Of a stretch of 64,000 nt of DNA, positions 31,963 through 62,274 are shown one piece after another. This DNA comes from Tubulanus polymorphus. Its lineage: Eukaryota; Nemertea; Palaeonemertea; Tubulaniformes; Tubulanidae. The notes under the pieces were generated by a model that saw nothing but the letters and a program-made list of their open reading frames with translations, had not been told where the DNA came from and did no database searches. The DNA is taken from the NCBI RefSeq assembly GCF_964204645.1, contig NC_134026.1, forward strand, positions 31,000,650 to 31,064,649. Direction: 5' to 3'. Each line of letters opens with the position of its first letter. Position 1 is the stretch's first letter. The translations under genes and the position numbers were made by a program.

Positions 31963-31989
31963 CTGCATTGAGTGGGATAGATCAGCAAA

Positions 31990-32559
31990 ATGTCTACGAT
32001 TTGGATTTTGATGTTTATGGCGCTTCATTTTAATGTCAACGATAGTGCCTACATCAAAAGAACTGACACCTGTCAGGATATAACGATTCCGATGTGTAAA
32101 ATAGGATTGTCATACAATCAAACAAAAATGCTGAATGTCTTCAATCGGAACCAAGAAGAAGCTCTTTGGGACTTGTTTTTTTGGCCGCGGATAAATTGCA
32201 GCGATTCCCTGAATGAATTTCTATGTGCACTATACGCACCGCCGTGTTCCTCGGAACCGCCGTGTAAATCGCTATGCGAAGAAGTTACAAAAGCGTGTGA
32301 AGCTGCGATGAATAGCCTGGGATTTCTTTGGCCACACAAACTGAGGTGCGAAAATTTCAAACGGGAAACATCTTGTATCGGAGCCCGAGGTATTGAAAAA
32401 TCTCAAAATCACGGACAGCTGAGTGTGATGACATTGATGGATCTGGAAAATCGTGTTGATTTCCTCGAATCACGAATAGAAAACAGTGAAACATTTCGCG
32501 ATAAAGTAAAAAATTTAGAGCAGCGAATTGAAGCTCTTGAACGCATTTTATTGAAGTAA
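31990..32559 (+). CDS. Secreted frizzled-domain protein with C-terminal coiled coil (copy 1)
   Basis: A single uninterrupted 189-residue frame. Residues 1-20 look like a signal peptide. The frizzled cysteine-rich domain (about 27-132) keeps all ten cysteines in order: [71 protein letters not shown]. Residues 145-189 form a heptad-rich coiled coil (MDLENRVDFLESRIENSE, then [16 protein letters not shown]). Frizzled CRDs bind the Wnt lipid; secreted versions act as Wnt buffers or carriers. No netrin-like domain (as in SFRPs) and no transmembrane segment is present, so this is not a known SFRP or Frizzled. The coiled coil suggests oligomers, which is inference. A paralogue follows 453 bp downstream. 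Confidence 0.87.
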   Translation: MSTIWILMFMALHFNVNDSAYIKRTDTCQDITIPMCKIGLSYNQTKMLNVFNRNQEEALWDLFFWPRINCSDSLNEFLCALYAPPCSSEPPCKSLCEEVTKACEAAMNSLGFLWPHKLRCENFKRETSCIGARGIEKSQNHGQLSVMTLMDLENRVDFLESRIENSETFRDKVKNLEQRIEALERILLK

Positions 32560-33012
32560 CTATTTTAAATAATTCTGTAAAGAAACGATCAAATTTCAAC
32601 AACAACAAAGATATAATCTCTGCGGTTAAATGATCGTTCAACTCATAAATCTTTAATTTCTCTTTTTTGAGTCATTGAATAAAAGATCTTTCTTCAAGAA
32701 CTTCCACAAAAATCTGGTGATCTAGTTTTTTTTCGATTTTTCCTTTCCAACAACTTACACGAACCGGAGTTCGGAGTGAATCTGCTGTAATTTGTGCGGA
32801 TAGGGGTGAATTCTGTTCCCACAGTGTCAACAACAGTTTCGTCATTAATGTTGTCATATTTCCAGGGTAGCGGGTGATCTAATTGCAGAATTTACTAATA
32901 TTGCCTCCTCTAATGACGTATCAAATTGTATGGGTGACCTAAACCTTTATTGGCATTTGGTTAGACTGGTTGCTGGTAGTTGAAGCTGCGCTAAACCGAA
33001 TAGATCCACAAA

Positions 33013-33675
33013 ATGTCTCCAATTTGGATTTTCACGTTTTTTATGTTTTATTTTGGCGTCGGTGAAAGTTTTTTCAGGACAAGTGAAAACTGTGAGAATA
33101 TACAGATGCCACTGTGTAAAGTAGGATTGTCGTACAATCAAACAAGAATGCCGAATATGTTTCATCATCAAAACCAAGAAGAAGCAGGTCTGGAGTTACA
33201 TCAGTTTTTTCCGTTGGTTAAGGTGAGATGCAGTCCGAATTTAAAGGAGTTTCTATGCGCTATGTACGCACCACCTTGTTCTTCTGAACCACCGTGTAAA
33301 TCACTCTGTGAACTTGCAAGAAATGGTTGTGAAACCCTCATGAACAGATTCGGATTTCAATGGCCAGAAAAAATGAACTGTAACCATTTTCGAGATAATG
33401 AACCTTGTATCAGTGGAACTGCGACTCCAGCACCGCCAACAACACAGGAGCCGTCGACTCCACCACCAACCGAGGAGCCCTCTACTCCAGCACCAACCGA
33501 GGAGCCTTTGACTCCTGTGACGTCGAATAAACCGTTGAGCGTGAAATTAATGGATTTAGAAAATCGCGTTGAATTCCTCGAATCGCTGATAGAAAACAGT
33601 GAAACATTTCGCGATAAAGTGAAAAATTTAGAACAGCGAATTGAAGCTCTTGAACGTATTTTATTGAAGAATTGA
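33013..33675 (+). CDS. Secreted frizzled-domain protein with Pro/Thr linker and coiled coil (copy 2)
   Basis: An intronless 220-residue frame with a signal peptide ([19 protein letters not shown]). The ten-cysteine frizzled domain runs from about 26 to 135 ([40 protein letters not shown]). A mucin-like Pro/Thr linker follows ([20 protein letters not shown] repeats, about 140-172), then a 45-residue coiled coil almost identical to that of copy 1 ([20 protein letters not shown] shared exactly). The copies are clear tandem duplicates. The CRD has diverged much more than the coiled-coil tail, and the linker is unique to this copy. The predicted product is a secreted oligomeric Wnt-binding protein; function is inferred from the domain only. 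A short 'tatatatatatac' run lies after the stop. Confidence 0.87.
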
Positions 33676-42584: not shown

Positions 42585-43034
42585 TCAATTTTGATCGTCG
42601 TAAAGAACTCGAACGCTTAATGAACACGAACAACAGCAGACGATATCAACAGAAAACTGTTTATCACAATCGTTTAATGTATAAAACCCTCCGCATCTAC
42701 ACGGATAAACTAAAACATCGTCGTCATCGGCAACGACGTCAAATTCTGACAATGAAATTGTATCCTGAATCGGGAATTTCTGCGCGAGGCATCTTTGACT
42801 CCAAGCGGCGTCGTATTTATTCCTCATCTCCTCGTCTCGTAATATTTTCCAAGCTTTGTCGATGGCGACGAATTCATCGCGGAGTTCACTCAGTTGTCGT
42901 TCGGTCAAATCGCGATCGTCTTTTCTATCGCGTTTATCCGGATGAAATTCAAGCACTAGTTTCTGATACGATTGTTTTAACGTTTCTTTACTCGCGCCGG
43001 AATCACATTTCAATATCGCGTACAAATCTTCCAT
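42585..43034 (-). CDS. DNAJC24: Diphthamide biosynthesis J-protein (DPH4)
   Basis: A single exon of 149 codons, the same length as human DNAJC24. The N-terminal J domain opens MEDLYAILKCDSGASKETLK and includes the HPD motif (LVLEFHPDKRDRKDD) and AWKILRDEEMRNKYDAAW. The C-terminal CSL/DPH zinc finger supplies its cysteines in YPCRCGGFY and DIVCCCSCSL. The protein stimulates Hsp70 and binds iron in the pathway that makes diphthamide on elongation factor 2. The ATG at 43032-43034 is chosen because an in-frame TGA lies upstream. An acceptor at 43103 and a possible leader exon near 43209-43236 suggest a spliced 5'UTR. The gene may sit in an intron of the transporter gene on the same strand. Confidence 0.95.
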   Translation of the reverse strand: MEDLYAILKCDSGASKETLKQSYQKLVLEFHPDKRDRKDDRDLTERQLSELRDEFVAIDKAWKILRDEEMRNKYDAAWSQRCLAQKFPIQDTISLSEFDVVADDDDVLVYPCRCGGFYTLNDCDKQFSVDIVCCCSCSLSVRVLYDDQN

Positions 43035-43540
43035 TTCGCTCTTAATTCGCGTGAAATGAAAATCTTCCGATTTATGTTTCAAATCCCCTCAAAAATTCCC
43101 TGAAAAGACACGAAATAAAAACCAAAACGTATTTTAAGATTTTGTTTGTTACGCATTTTGAAATGTGAGCCCCATTCACGCGAGTCTACTGCGGCAGTTG
43201 TGTATCCCTACCTTTCTCCTTCGTCGATGTCATTTTATGATAATCCTTTACAGGTTTATTCTCTCTTATTCACTTTGTAAAATTCATACTTTATAAGACT
43301 AGACGACTAACATAAAGATAGTCTCAAAAAATAATCCGTAATGTGTGCAGTCAGTACGTGTTTTGTATGTGACACTGACACAATATTAATCAGTTGGTAA
43401 CATATGTAACCCACCGGTACGCAGCACGCTTATTCAATATTACATCTATCACTCTGTATAAAAATCCCACAATAATTTGATTAAAAGAAGTCCGAAATGT
43501 TAATGATTTATTCAAAGTTTCAACTAAATCCTAATAGTCT

Positions 43541-54608: not shown

Positions 54609-57600
54609 TCATTCAATAACGCTATCGTATTTCAGTTGTCCTGATTGGTCCACTAATCTGTGTATTGCAGCAAATGTATACGCCATACGGGCGCTTTCAG
54701 TGTCTATCTTAGGCGGAACGTAGCCCTCGGAATTCAGCGTCGATCCGTCAATTTTTACGTCAAGATTTTGCATCTAAAACGATAAAATGAAAGCATTGAA
54801 TACGATGGAAGTATGAATAAATTGTCATTCAGCAAAGTATCATCAATAAATACCCAGTGAGAACGTTGAAGCAAGATAACGCAACATGATGAAATATCTT
54901 TATGGTCTATGAGAAGAATTCCAAAAAATAATTTAACTGATGCCGTAAAGTTTTGGCCGTTTCCTAATCAGGTGGAATGATGATGACATTCAGCGAACAA
55001 AGTCAATTGTCCAGTTGGACAGTGGCTGTGCCAGTTAAAACTCTGGGTGAAAGATTAGTTAATTTTGAATGTTTTAAAGTAAAATCCTAACTCACAAATA
55101 AGTGTAACTGTGGAACAACTGTGGAACTGGGTCCAGATGATAATTCAAGTTCTAGTCTTCAATTGGGGAATCTAGATTTTAACACCGAATTTGTATGAAT
55201 AACTCGTATTACAAAATCCAATAGGCATTTCCCCGGTTTATTACAGATTGTCACAAGCTCCTCGCGTGATGGGAGCGTTTATGTAATATACATAAAATTG
55301 AGCTTCCCTGTGAATGTAATGTGTTCATACATATTGAATCTGTGACAATGTGCGGGTGTTTGAGAGAGAGCATTACATATCGTAACATTATCCTATTAAC
55401 AAAAGGTCAATGATCATGATGACAAATTATAACGAATGCGGAGTGAAGTATTTCGAATAGTTGTTGAGGTCCTCTAGAATAAGGCGTTGCATAAACGCGC
55501 CCTCGTGTTTGTACTCATGTAGGGACCGATCTCAGAGTGTGAAAGTAGGTTTATATCATTAAACCCTTCTGTCGAGAAAACCACAAAATTTACACTTTCA
55601 CGATAAAATAAACACGATGAAGATTAAACCGGAGTGTGATGTAATGTATACCAAAATAATCATCATATTCATCGAGTACCAATCCCCTCATCAACAGAAG
55701 TTGCTAAAACGTACAGATGTTAGATGATTGTGGCGCCCACTGCTCAACCATCCTTAAACACCTTGGCAAATAAACAGATTAAACTAAAAAGGCTTCGTAC
55801 GATTCGTCCGGTGAGATTAACGCGTTATATTTGATCGGAACCCAAAAACCACATCTATACCGACCCCTGCAGGAGTCTGGTCCCCGATGACCATCTGCTG
55901 CCGTAGTTTTAACAAAACTCATTCGATATCTTTTGTTTTTTTCGAACAGACAAAATGTCAATCATACCACCAACCATTGTGTTCATCGAACCATTTGCGG
56001 TTTGGAACCGAGTCCAATCTGTCCTCGCTAACCACACTCTATACGGAAGCTATCAAACCGTTTCTTCAACGGATTAAGACTTACCACATATTTAAGGTTG
56101 GCAAGGAAGGCTTCAATTCGTTGACTGACTTTCTCTAACTCGCACAAGAACCGGTTTGGATGATGTACTTCACCTTCGGGACACGTATGACTCGGGCACG
56201 GGTTACCGCCCAATGTATATAACGTACAAACTACTCGATGTTCCATTTCATAGACTCGATTTATTATATGTTTGTATTGAGTCATCACTCTCAAACCGCT
56301 ATTTAACGCTATCTGAAAGTTTAAAAACAACAAAATCCCGTGTGAAAAATAGCTTTACGTACATTTCATATGATATATATATTTAACTATGCAGTAAGAC
56401 ATTGAGATATCTAATCCTGGATGTATTTATCTTTAAATAGATACTGATTGTATGCATGGTGCGCAAGACCCATACGCGGCAAGGTTTTATTCATTTCTGC
56501 AATTACATCAATTTGTCTCTTTTAAATGAATGAATGCATTTCAAAATTACAGGTCGGGAAGACACGCAATATCTGATGTAAGAAACACTGGTGTAATCAG
56601 TTCAGAAAACATGTTATCATAAATGAATTTACAAGGTTTTGTATATGAAAGGTTTTTGAGAAGGTGCATGAAACATTATATGATTTTGCCAAAAAGGCGA
56701 CATTTGTTCCAGAATTTGTTCTAATCATGGAGGAACAATGAATTAGTCGATGAGGGTTTGAAGTAATCAGACTGAAACTCCAAGATGAGGGACACCCAGG
56801 CTGAAGAAGATATGCATAAGAGTTGGAAAAGGGAGGGGGTGGAGTGAATGCCGGGGAGGGGGTGGGGTAACTGTGACTCGTATTGCGTGAGCTGCTGCTG
56901 CTGCTGCTACCATTTCGGAAACTCATTGATGGATTTATCCATATTTCCCTCCTATATTTAGACGTCGTTTTCTAGTCTTGTATCCTCGATTTTGACAAGA
57001 ATGTTACATAGTTAATGAGAGAGAGGAATGGGACGTCGTTGACACGCGATCTATTATCTATTTGTGAATATACGGCACTTGACCATCGCTTACGCCTACA
57101 CCAGTCTACAATATTCTATTTATTCTTATGTCAATATTGGCAAATATCAGGGGTGAATTTCTTTCCGTGGAAAAAAAACTTAATTGGGTAAAATTCTGCA
57201 CCGATTTCCAAGGTTGTGACGAGTTAAAATTCAATTCATTTTTGATGACTCTTAGTCAAATATTAACTCCAGAACTGTGAGGAACAAGTTCCAGGATCTG
57301 CAGTTCCACATATTTAATTAATTTCTAACAACTGTGGAACTGAAGGTTAGTTACGTGGTAACCGGATAGTCGGTTTCAATAGACAGGTAACCGTCTAATT
57401 CAAATTGAGAAGAAACACCCTCAATCTGAAGTGAACTACTTAGTGTTTGACGTGTCCACTCAATTATGAGACGGTTTTGAAAATAGCTCATAATACTCTC
57501 ATATTTTCTTCCTCATATTACGGGTTTTCTTTAACCTGAAAAGAATTCTACATTTTTTTCTCTGAGATTAAAATAGTAAAATGAGTTAAAAATGAATAAC

Positions 57601-60600
57601 TTACAGCCAAGTCATCATTAACAGTCGGATTAGTGTGGTCCAATATCACTGGTACTATTTCTGGTAAACCAAAATATTGCGCAAACGTCCGCGCAAAATC
57701 GTCGCAGGATGGATAAGCATCTTTAGGAATTTGATCTCTTTGTCGGTGACACTGTAGAAAAAAACAAAATCACAACATGAAGCATCGTAACCTAATCTTT
57801 AACAAGGTATAAACTAACAGAGAATGAATAAAACAAACAGTCACCAGTCAGAAAAAATCGATAGATATTTATCAAATATTTTTTTCATCTGAAAATAATA
57901 CGAAGCAAAATGAATTGACGCAACGCGCGCCAAGTTGTTCTCCTGGACCACCGTGAAGTATTGAGATATTTATCTGGCACGGGGATCATCATTAAGGTCA
58001 TTCCGTCTAAATTTATGTCCACCGCTGTCTACTTAATTGGTAATTAAGGCTTTTATTTTAATTAAAACTAGACAGCAAGCACGCGACTGAGATTACATTG
58101 TTCTCTTATGTAATGAGTCAGAGGCAGTTTTCTTCACTCGGTCAGGTTTTTACGGTGCACTCCGTCAGTAACTGCCCCTTATTGCACTGAGCGCAACCTT
58201 TATACGACGAACAACTCGAGTGTGTGTATGCTGGAATGGGTCCAGTTACACCCTCGATCGAAACATCCAACTATAGTACGATTTATTCCGATTGCCGATT
58301 TCAAAATCAAACCCCAGCTTCGTTGTAAGGTACACAAACACCGAACAAGCATACGATAACATAACAAGGATCAGGGCCCAGTTTCACAAAAAAGTTTAAG
58401 CCTAAAACGGTTAAGTTTGAATTGTTGTCCTCATTGAAAATACGAAGTAACCAATGGCAATTACAGCAAAAATTTTAGTTAAACTTTTTTTTGTGAAACT
58501 GGGCTCAGAACCAGACTCTTCTAAGAAAGCGAGCGTACCTTACTAATTCTATTTAGATATGTATAACTTGTTACAAATTCTTTTGAAAATCATCTATTTA
58601 AAAGTGCCGTGTCAAAAAGGCGAACTTCTTATCGTAAAGAAGGCCAATTTTAGTTATTACTCCCATTTAATGGAAATATCCCTGGATTAAACCATCCTTT
58701 GGAGGACGCGAGGTTTGCGACCTCGAACTGGAGAACGTGGAGGTGGAGTGGATCCGGGTCTAAGTTTAACGTTACACCTCGGTCGGCAATAACGCGCCCT
58801 TGTAAACCGATATACTTCTTGAATGAAAACAAAAAAAACCACCCGATTTAGGCACACCTTTCCACGTGTTCGTCATCACGCACTGCACGCACGCACACAC
58901 ACACGCACGCACGCACGCACGTAGCTCTATCTTGAATGAACAATTTGATAAAAAATTTCAAATAGTAGAAATTGAAATGGTGTGTCTGAAAAAATTGGAA
59001 AAGTTTTAGGTTGATGAAGTTCTTGTAAATTTTCTAGGAAAGAATGGAAGTATGTTCTACCCTCGATTATCCACCCTAATTATCCACCCTCAATTATCCA
59101 CCCTCAGTTTTCCACCCAAAGTTTGAATCCCTTTTACAAAAATTTTGGTTCATCGTCAATTAAGAAATTGAAGACAAGAATTGACAATGACTGTAATACG
59201 AAGTGTGGGCTTCTGGCTTTTAAGGTTAAAAGTTGACCAGGATCTTGTTTCACAGTTGTGAGTTAGAGTTAACTCTGAGTTAAGATTGGTCCGTTTTCAA
59301 CGAGTTAACTCTGAGTCAAATGCGGAATTGGGACCTTGAGATAACTCAGGTTAAAATCAGAACTTTTTTCAGAGTCAAGTCTTAACGCACACACACACTG
59401 TGGATAGCGGGTCCGGTGTTTTCTTAATTTACAATATTGTTCATCTTCTATCAATAAAGTAAATGCGAATTAATGCGGGTGAAGCGGTCACCAGTCACAG
59501 CTCGAGGACGGGGGTTCGGGAATACTGATGTAATCAATCCGATGGTGTAATACTCTGCAATCATCGCTGATGAATATTGATCATTTGGACAAAACTCGAG
59601 AACGGCGGCAGCGGCTGCAAGTCAGTGTTTCCACGAACGATTAGGTAATATCCCTGTTTTAGGTAAAACCTCTCACTCACTCTCAGTATCAGTGCGTGAG
59701 ATAATGTTCTGAAAAAGACGTAACACCGAGAGACGTGTGAGTTGTTGTTCCAGGGTTGTTTCGGGATCCGATGAGGAATATGACTCACCGATTCCGAAGT
59801 TTTCGGTTGACAAATGACATTGACCGCAATTTAGAAGCTCATCGATATGTATACATATACTTGTATCATTAATTGAAGTATGTTTACATTGCTGATAGTA
59901 GATATGTTCACTACCACCGGCTGATATAAATAAATAATACATCCGCGTGAAGCTAATGTTTACGCTGATTGTGTTTATAATAAGTCATTTAATATAGGTG
60001 ATTCATGACACGAACAAACAGCAGATATCTTCGTTTTTAGACTGAGTCACTCTCACTCTCGGACTGGACGGACACGGTCGGTAACTCGCAGGGCCGCCAG
60101 CCGGGCTGTCGCAGCTCGGTGGGTGATGATGCTAAATTTAGAACAATAGGTTTTTCATACCGGTGATTCATTAAAGAAAAAACTATCTTGACTTAATTTG
60201 TGTGTCACCGTCAGATGATAAATTGGTCACGATACAGAGATTTTGTTTATCACTTCGGTGAGAAAGACTTTTTAGAACTGGGGCCAGGTGCACAGTAAGG
60301 TCTTAAAACGTTCTATCGAGTCGACTCATTTTGGTTCTATAACCAATCCTACAACTTAAGACCAGTCTAAGCTCATTTTGGTTCTATAACCAATCTGACA
60401 ACTTAAGACCACTCTAAGCTCATTATTTGTTCTAAATTTAACACTAAGTCTAAGCTCATTTCGGTTCTCAATTGCCAATCTAACACCACTTTTGGATTCA
60501 AGTCTTGCCGTGGAACTGTCCCCAGGAACGATTACGAGTCTGTTTCGCTAACTAACGTACGTTCTAGAGTCTGTTTCGCAAACTAACTTGTTTTTATGTA

Positions 60601-62274
60601 AGGTTGGTATATATGCATTTATACTTTAACTCGTAATACAATGACACTTGCAATGCCTGCTTTTAGATATATATAATACTGAGTAGGCAATTGTGACACA
60701 ATTATCAAGAGTTTATTTCAGTTTTGCTATAAACATTATTGTGTCGTTTAGGTTACATATATACATAAACATTTGAATGTTTGATGGGCATTGCCGGGAC
60801 ATTCTTGCGTGAATACCTCTGTTTGTACGATTTGACCTTTCGCTGATTGAGAAATTTTACTTTTGTTGGAAATATCAATAAAACTATTTTGCTCAATAGA
60901 CAGAACACGATTGAAACGCGTGCCAAAAATAAATGATTGCCATATCTTTCTTTGTCAGTGATTACGCAAGTTTCGAAAGTCAGTCTAAAAATATTGGTAA
61001 AATGTAATTCAAGATATTTCGCACGTAAAAAGGAAATCCGTCTAGCAGTTCAATAGTTAGATACACATTCCTACGCGCCATACCTACATGTAATTAGTCT
61101 ATACTAGAATATATAGATCACAAAAAATCATCCAAATAAGTCGGGCAAAACTCACTACAGAAAAAACAAACCAACTCAATTAGTTACGTGTCTGCATGTA
61201 CGTGGTAGCATACACGATAAAGCATCTCATCATCCCCCACCGACTGCGGAAATGGTCCGATTAGACCATTTGAGTGCAATAACCCCATGAGCTGAGTACC
61301 GCCTCAATGTTCAACAGAAATATATATATATATAGGTATTTTGTTGATGTTTTTCCAGGCACTTACATAAAACATAACTCTGTCAATGGGGGCGGTACGG
61401 TGAACGTGCTGTTATATACTTACATAGTAAATATACGTATCGTTGGATCTGTACTGTAAATCAAGAACTGCTTGTGAGATCAATTTGATTTGCTTCTCTA
61501 ACATAATACTATCCATGAGATCTATACTCCGCCGAGTGCGTAAAACTGAAACCAGTATCTTAGGAGTCGCAAAGCGTTCCCTGTGTCGTAGAAAGCGTCC
61601 TGAGAGTTTACGAAATTGTTGATGTAATCCTGAAAACGTGAAATGCTTTTGCTGCTGATACGCAATGGCTGCTTCTGACGGTGCTGATGATGGTGGTGTT
61701 TGTGAATTGCGGGAGCTATTGGGAATCGATGCTATATCATGAGTTGAGGTCCGACTGAACGGTACTGCTATCGTACTATTTACTATCAGTAGCGTGGAAA
61801 CTAGCACGGCATAAATACCTAGAATATTAAAACAAAACATTAAACAATCTATTTATACCAGGCATTTTTATAATGATTCATAACTTGAAATGAAATTGGC
61901 ATTTTTTTTCAAATATTGCGGTTGATTAATTTGAGTTTTTTTTAAATTTGTATTTCGAAATAAATGCAATGTTTTAAATAGGTGACGCAATGCAGTTGAT
62001 GTGAATATGGAGAAATATTTCACGAAATAACTTTAAAAAAATGTTATTGACGGAAAGAATAACAATAGACGCACTGCTTGCGGAACAGACTGTAAAAACA
62101 AAAACTATTTTCTAAACAGCATTAACATTTAATGAGGCGGATATTTCCGCGAGCTCCAGTCGAGAATAAGAAAAAAATGCACGTAAAAGTATCTTAAAAA
62201 AACAAATATTAATTAGAAAACTTACCGTGGTAACTTCTGGACATATTTGCTGGAATAAATTCGTATAATTCCAT
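54609..62274 (-). CDS. Secreted helical protein, candidate class I (IL-6/CNTF-like) cytokine
   Basis: Five coding exons: 62226-62274 (or from ATG 62244), 61424-61818, 57605-57751, 56085-56312, 54609-54773. Intron phases are 1, 0, 0, 0. From the second Met (preferred: MSRSYHGIYAVLVSTLLIVN, cut after A24) it has 317 residues. A Ser/Pro-rich then basic stretch ends in RTRR (103), a likely furin site. Predicted helices: A, SIDLMDSIMLEKQIKLISQA (from 104, exon 2); B, ALNSGLRVMTQYKHIINRVY (about 189-221, exon 4); C, FLCELEKVSQRIEAFLANLK (about 242-263, exon 4); D, TESARMAYTFAAIHRLVDQ (about 288-306, exon 5). Exon 3 supplies a loop with two cysteines; exon 4 has four more. Vertebrate long-chain cytokine genes such as IL-6, EPO and G-CSF share the phase pattern and the helix-per-exon layout. 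I recognise no orthologue; the cytokine call is inference. Confidence 0.62.
55020..55137. mobile_element. Family B foldback fragment
   Basis: 'ccagttaaaactctgggtga' at the left and 'aactgtggaactgggtcc' at the right, in the last intron of the cytokine-like gene. Confidence 0.5.
57192..57348. mobile_element. Family B foldback element
   Basis: 'gcaccgatttccaaggttgt' ... 'gagttaaaattcaattcatt' ... 'ttaactccagaactgtgagg' and a second end 'caactgtggaactgaa'. It lies in an intron of the cytokine-like gene. Confidence 0.5.
58376..58508. mobile_element. Family C foldback element
   Basis: 'gggcccagtttcacaaaaaa' and 'ttttttttgtgaaactgggc' are near-perfect terminal inverted repeats, with 'gtttaa' on both sides. 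Length is 133 bp with no frame. Confidence 0.85.
58881..58922. repeat. (CA)n/(GCAC)n microsatellite
   Basis: 'cactgcacgcacgcacacac' followed by more GCAC copies, in the largest intron of the cytokine-like gene. Confidence 0.9.
59228..59415. mobile_element. Family B foldback element
   Basis: 'ggatcttgtttcacagttgt' + 'gagttagagttaactctgag' at the left, with GAGTTAACTC arms and a degraded right end 'cacactgtggatagcgggtcc'. Confidence 0.55.
60279..60524. mobile_element. Family A foldback element
   Basis: 'ggggccaggtgcacagtaag' at the left and 'caagtcttgccgtggaactg' at the right, with about three internal 'acttaagaccagtctaagct' units and 'tataaccaatctgacaac'. Confidence 0.75.

Follow-up and report, generated by a model that had tools for sequence, protein, structure and literature searches.

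A five-exon gene and its product

Here we describe a gene for a putative secreted protein in a 64,000-nucleotide (nt) stretch of the Tubulanus polymorphus genome (contig NC_134026.1, here C2, positions 31000650-31064649; hereafter the window), together with three diverged paralogues elsewhere in the same genome, which comprises 267.8 megabases (Mb) in 77 contigs. We propose that these four genes represent a new family of secreted helical proteins with an architecture like that of the class I cytokines, and that membership of class I is plausible but unproven.

The gene model was obtained by reading the sequence and anchoring its exon ends on splice sites with a script. The gene lies on the minus strand (62244-54609), and its five coding exons (Table 1) are separated by four introns of the gt..ag type, in phases 1, 0, 0 and 0, giving a product of 317 residues. 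Exon number, phases, product length and the short coding part of exon 1, counted from the preferred methionine, had all been put forward in an original prediction made from the DNA alone, and the anchoring agrees with each. That prediction took the gene to begin at 62274, because an alternative in-frame ATG lies there, 30 nt upstream of the MSRSYHG start. The product is laid out as a hydrophobic N-terminus (read by eye), a pro-region ending in RTRR, and a further 214 residues containing six cysteines; both the pro-region in exon 2 and the TATA box, a consensus match, were found as predicted. The promoter motif scan also returned two TTC..GAA matches.

Table 1. Features of the gene within the window (positions count from the first letter of the window)
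Feature	Position	Strand	Description
TATAAAT match	62414-62408	minus	Motif scan, consensus match only; about 164 nt upstream of the MSRSYHG start
Exon 1, coding part	62244-62226	minus	19 nt, MSRSYH plus 1 nt; followed by phase-1 intron
Exon 2	61818-61424	minus	395 nt; remainder of hydrophobic N-terminus, pro-region, RTRR, putative helix A; followed by phase-0 intron
RTRR	61540-61529	minus	Candidate furin-type cleavage site directly before putative helix A
Exon 3	57751-57605	minus	147 nt; putative AB loop with Cys1 (first residue) and Cys2; followed by phase-0 intron
Exon 4	56312-56085	minus	228 nt; predicted helix B, BC loop with Cys3-Cys6, helix C; followed by phase-0 intron
Exon 5	54773-54609	minus	165 nt including stop; end of helix C, CD loop, putative helix D with AAIHRLV motif

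A family of diverged paralogues

When exon 4 was used as a query against the T. polymorphus genome, it recovered itself and two further places (E 0.001 and 0.11), around which counterparts of exons 2-5 were found (L004, near C2:1.217 Mb, and L005, near C1:3.137 Mb). Mature-protein queries brought out a fourth member, L029, near C2:0.322 Mb (E 4.9e-7 with L004 and 0.002 with L005), and L029 as a query against its own genome returned no fifth. These search counts are lower bounds, and the family has at least four members; a scan of the family alignment against viral contigs and genome contigs found no relatives.

The three paralogues share 29, 31 and 29% identity with the mature protein of the window gene, and in all six pairs the alignment score lies 24-47 standard deviations above 500 shuffles. 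The phase-0 boundaries 2/3, 3/4 and 4/5 are repeated in every paralogue, with the first falling between a Tyr and Cys1 in all four members. All six cysteines are kept throughout (spacing 15-62-10-5-13 in the window gene and 12-60-7-4-11 in L005), including Cys1 and Cys2 of the cysteine-bearing loop that had been predicted for exon 3. The start of helix C reads FxC in each member (FWC in three) and helix D carries A[IL]HR in each, while an RxRR precedes helix A in three of the four, L005 having QKK instead. A hydrophobic N-terminus can be read by eye in all members; exon 2 has a phase-1 entry in the window gene, L004 and L005, and in L029 it contains an in-frame ATG. No exon 1 was identified for L004 or L005.

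Because three diverged paralogues share these boundaries, all six cysteines and a basic site ahead of helix A, we conclude that the window gene and its paralogues are a real gene family. A reading of the window gene as a chance chain of exons or a pseudogene, rather than a working gene, could appeal to the TATA box and start codon being consensus readings and to a gene model read from genomic DNA, a point that also counts against the interpretation favoured below. With open frames, splice sites, boundaries and cysteines kept in all three paralogues, that reading is scarcely credible, and we rejected it on paralogue pair scores far above those of shuffles.

Immediately downstream of L005, and tail to tail with it, lies a single-frame open reading frame (ORF) for a 781-residue ADAM-type metalloprotease (HELGHSFGSNHD; 5591-7936 of L005, minus strand).

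Predicted helical structure of the products

The four-member alignment contains four blocks, A to D, of 28, 34, 27 and 21 residues, in which the only gap is one residue missing from L029. Of the 31 prolines and 18 glycines counted, only 1 and 2, respectively, fall within these blocks, the remainder occurring together with the indels in the loops (AB, 38-44 residues; BC, 20-26; CD, 14-19). Column-averaged hydrophobicity gave p-values for alpha-helical periodicity of 0.066, 0.021, 0.015 and 0.029 in A, B, C and D, compared with 0.56, 0.99 and 0.90 in the AB, BC and CD loops; we set the block limits on this very alignment, and the values therefore flatter the case.

Modelling of exon 4 alone with AlphaFold2 produced the two long helices that had been predicted for it (residues 2-34 and 54-74; mean predicted local distance difference test (pLDDT) score 80, predicted template modelling (pTM) score 0.62), with the five models spanning 59 to 80 in pLDDT, and amphipathic helices are supported for this exon by the predicted model. 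A Foldseek search with the exon 4 hairpin was uninformative, returning 175 matches at E<=10 and none at <=0.001; the 50 of these 175 that were listed comprised mostly unrelated coiled coils and helical hairpins, and no cytokine.

Candidate JAK/STAT components in the genome

The STAT_bind profile gave three matches over cut-off within C6:5284818-5285916. Near C2:7.425 Mb, a FERM_F2 match below cut-off (23.2 bits vs 26) is followed along the minus strand by a FERM_F1 exon over cut-off (33.7 bits vs 26.1), by an exon with HGN replacing HRD, and then by tyrosine kinase exons with HRDLAARN, an order that we take to be the layout of a JAK gene. As read from its DNA, the genome carries a JAK-like gene together with STAT matches.

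Other features of the window

Intron 2 contains, at 58372-58508, a segment with terminal inverted repeats (CAGGGCCCAGTTTCACAAAAAA ... TTTTTTGTGAAACTGGGCTCAG) that by eye resembles a short non-autonomous transposon. Elsewhere in the window, also judged by eye, two adjoining single-frame ORFs on the plus strand (31981-32559 and 33004-33675) resemble secreted Frizzled-type cysteine-rich domains followed by a coiled coil, and an ORF on the minus strand (42585-43088) resembles a J-domain protein with a DPH4/CSL-type zinc finger.

A possible cytokine-like ligand and its alternatives

IL-6 and growth hormone (GH)-type genes have five coding exons, a phase-1 first intron just inside the signal peptide and phase-0 introns thereafter, a plan that is typical, though not universal, for class I long-chain helical cytokines and that the window gene shares in exon number and phases. 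The best reading of the family is that it works like a class I cytokine, and it may be one. More specifically, we regard it as an evenly balanced proposition that the product is secreted as a pro-ligand and cleaved at RTRR, and that its mature form, a four-helix bundle with disulfide bonds, acts on receptors of the class I type upstream of JAK/STAT. The signal peptide would be removed, a furin-type protease would cut after RTRR, and the remaining mature protein (about 214 residues) would fold with up-up-down-down topology, held by disulfides Cys1-Cys2 in the AB loop, Cys3-Cys6 from the end of B to the start of C, and Cys4-Cys5 in the BC loop. The mature bundle may then bridge class-I-type receptor chains, activating JAK and STAT.

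A number of observations weigh against this interpretation. The periodicity of helix A is borderline, with its spectrum peaking at 180 degrees, and AlphaFold2 modelled exon 2 alone poorly (pLDDT 49, pTM 0.23), placing a helix at residues 85-124 that covers part of helix A yet spans RTRR. The helices proposed for exons 2 and 5 are suggested by sequence pattern, together with that poor model of exon 2; the original prediction of both holds as far as the gap-poor blocks and the periodicity of D go, and is borderline in the case of A. The CD loop is short for an overhand crossover, and L005 lacks RxRR.

Receptors of the gp130 or Domeless type, which the original prediction had proposed looking for, did not emerge from our searches of the genome, which were weak: the PF09240 receptor profile had no match anywhere, controls included; PF09067 had a single match of 18 bits, below cut-off and in surroundings that lack receptor features (its control gave only below-cut-off matches, in two prokaryotes); and a human gp130 fragment returned 64 rows, of which two stretches were inspected and proved titin-like and Ig/fn3 adhesion-like (immunoglobulin/fibronectin type III). 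The gp130 query also led to a titin/twitchin-like Ig/fn3 array with units of about 3.7 kilobases at about 8.39-8.48 Mb of C1 (part of which is locus L050).

Searches against known families were likewise negative. In Pfam, the window protein had nothing significant and two weak matches below cut-off, as did the set of three members without L029; in NCBIfam, the members other than L029 gave two weak matches (E 0.008 and 0.017), each in a single member, the models matched being bacterial and unrelated. Against the Protein Data Bank (PDB), phmmer with the whole window protein returned 7 matches at E<=10 (best E 0.41), and the three-member and four-member profiles returned 0 hits at E<=10. With hhalign, 14 human cytokines, their sequences typed in, scored 10.1-22.5 and five helical decoys 9.3-17.2; the best, IL-11, reached 22.5 over 41 columns, compared with 22.2 for the highest of 95 shuffles and 23.6 for reversed G-CSF, so that the typed cytokines were not distinguishable from decoys, shuffles or reversed sequences. 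Because these scores are matched by shuffled and reversed sequences and Pfam, NCBIfam and PDB give no significant match, there is no sequence evidence for cytokine homology. Known class I cytokines are often unlinkable to each other by sequence. IL-6 family cytokines are described as not conserved across vertebrates in PMC13203501. The missing similarity therefore does not exclude such homology.

Clear homology to another family, set beforehand as telling against a cytokine, was absent from the Pfam, NCBIfam and PDB searches (L029 being outside the first two). Two groups of candidates were also set aside on their generally known features. Cystine-knot factors (TGF-beta, neurotrophins) fit in pro-region, RxRR and six cysteines, but the family lacks a CxGxC motif and its pattern is helical; saposin, odorant-binding protein, crustacean hyperglycaemic hormone and Aplysia attractin are helical families with six cysteines, but in a different spacing.

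A helical, putatively secreted product, several phase-0 introns and loops of middling length would also suit a relative of the class II helical cytokines (interferon/IL-10 type), whose genes can likewise have five exons and four introns. The IL-10/interferon fold, however, has six to seven helices, whereas four helical blocks were recognised here, and the typed IL-10 and interferon-alpha were unremarkable in hhalign (10.1 and 13.5), which makes this relationship improbable.

A weightier alternative, though less likely than the cytokine-like reading, is a lineage-specific secreted helical family with six cysteines outside class I (a neurohormone, growth factor or gamete protein using another receptor class), whose gene plan would be convergent. 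The want of detectable cytokine similarity fits this alternative, as does an N-terminal pro-region with a basic site, which is prohormone-like. A BC loop rich in cysteines and the shortness of the CD loop fit it too; these and the pro-region are departures from the IL-6/G-CSF plan that leave room for another topology. Convergence sits less easily with four helical blocks that measure 21-34 residues, exon 4 holding two, with an exon plan resembling that of IL-6/GH genes, or with a JAK-like gene and STAT in the genome, though the presence of these last does not tie the protein to them.

Returning to the cytokine-like ligand, it is possible, if short of probable, that the family belongs to the class I long-chain helical cytokines as an invertebrate branch which has kept the ancestral five-exon gene, its four proprotein-cleaved members being the missing ligands of gp130/Domeless- or CRLF3-type receptors; if so, the IL-6/GH/EPO gene plan would predate vertebrates. 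The original prediction of an invertebrate class I cytokine stands as regards the architecture in four paralogues, the exon 4 helices and the JAK-like gene and STAT, and found no backing in a sequence or profile link or a receptor.

Comparison with known systems

Invertebrates possess JAK, STAT and receptors of the class I type, yet few ligands, and the family offers candidate messengers for JAK/STAT. In PMC13203501, IL6R, JAK and STAT are reported from molluscs without an IL-6 ligand, IL-6 is found only in vertebrates, and insect Upd is named together with a C-type lectin reported to act on shrimp Domeless; CRLF3 is treated as an orphan in PMC6797617. Our searches of the PMC literature turned up no helical cytokine family from molluscs or annelids, which does not prove the nemertean family undescribed. 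Insect Unpaired (Upd), the ligand of Domeless, shares the proposed role of a secreted JAK/STAT ligand outside vertebrates; all-model Pfam scans of the window protein and the three-member set, in which we presume an Unpaired model to be included, showed no match to it, and the sequences were not directly compared. The missing ligands of invertebrate IL6R/Domeless-like receptors and of CRLF3 would have the same role, with no such receptor identified in this genome and no observation connecting the protein with one.

From the long-chain class I cytokines (IL-6, G-CSF, EPO, growth hormone, IL-12p35) the nemertean family differs in its pro-region ending RxRR, a further point against the cytokine-like reading, since an N-terminal pro-region cut at such a site is unusual among the vertebrate members. 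It also differs in having four cysteines within or next to the BC loop and a CD loop that is short; it shows no detectable sequence similarity, and its fold is predicted only in part. In the vertebrate plan, exon 2 encodes helix A, exon 3 the AB loop, exon 4 helices B and C, and exon 5 helix D, and the window gene is like these cytokines in exon number, phases and putative exon-to-helix plan. Like IL-6, it has a first coding exon of 19 nt, and the family shares with IL-6 and G-CSF a pair of cysteines near the beginning of the AB loop. Its four members, which combine a gene plan like that of cytokines with conserved cysteines and a candidate processing site, provide concrete sequences for testing, and bear on whether the gene architecture of IL-6, GH and EPO is older than the vertebrates.

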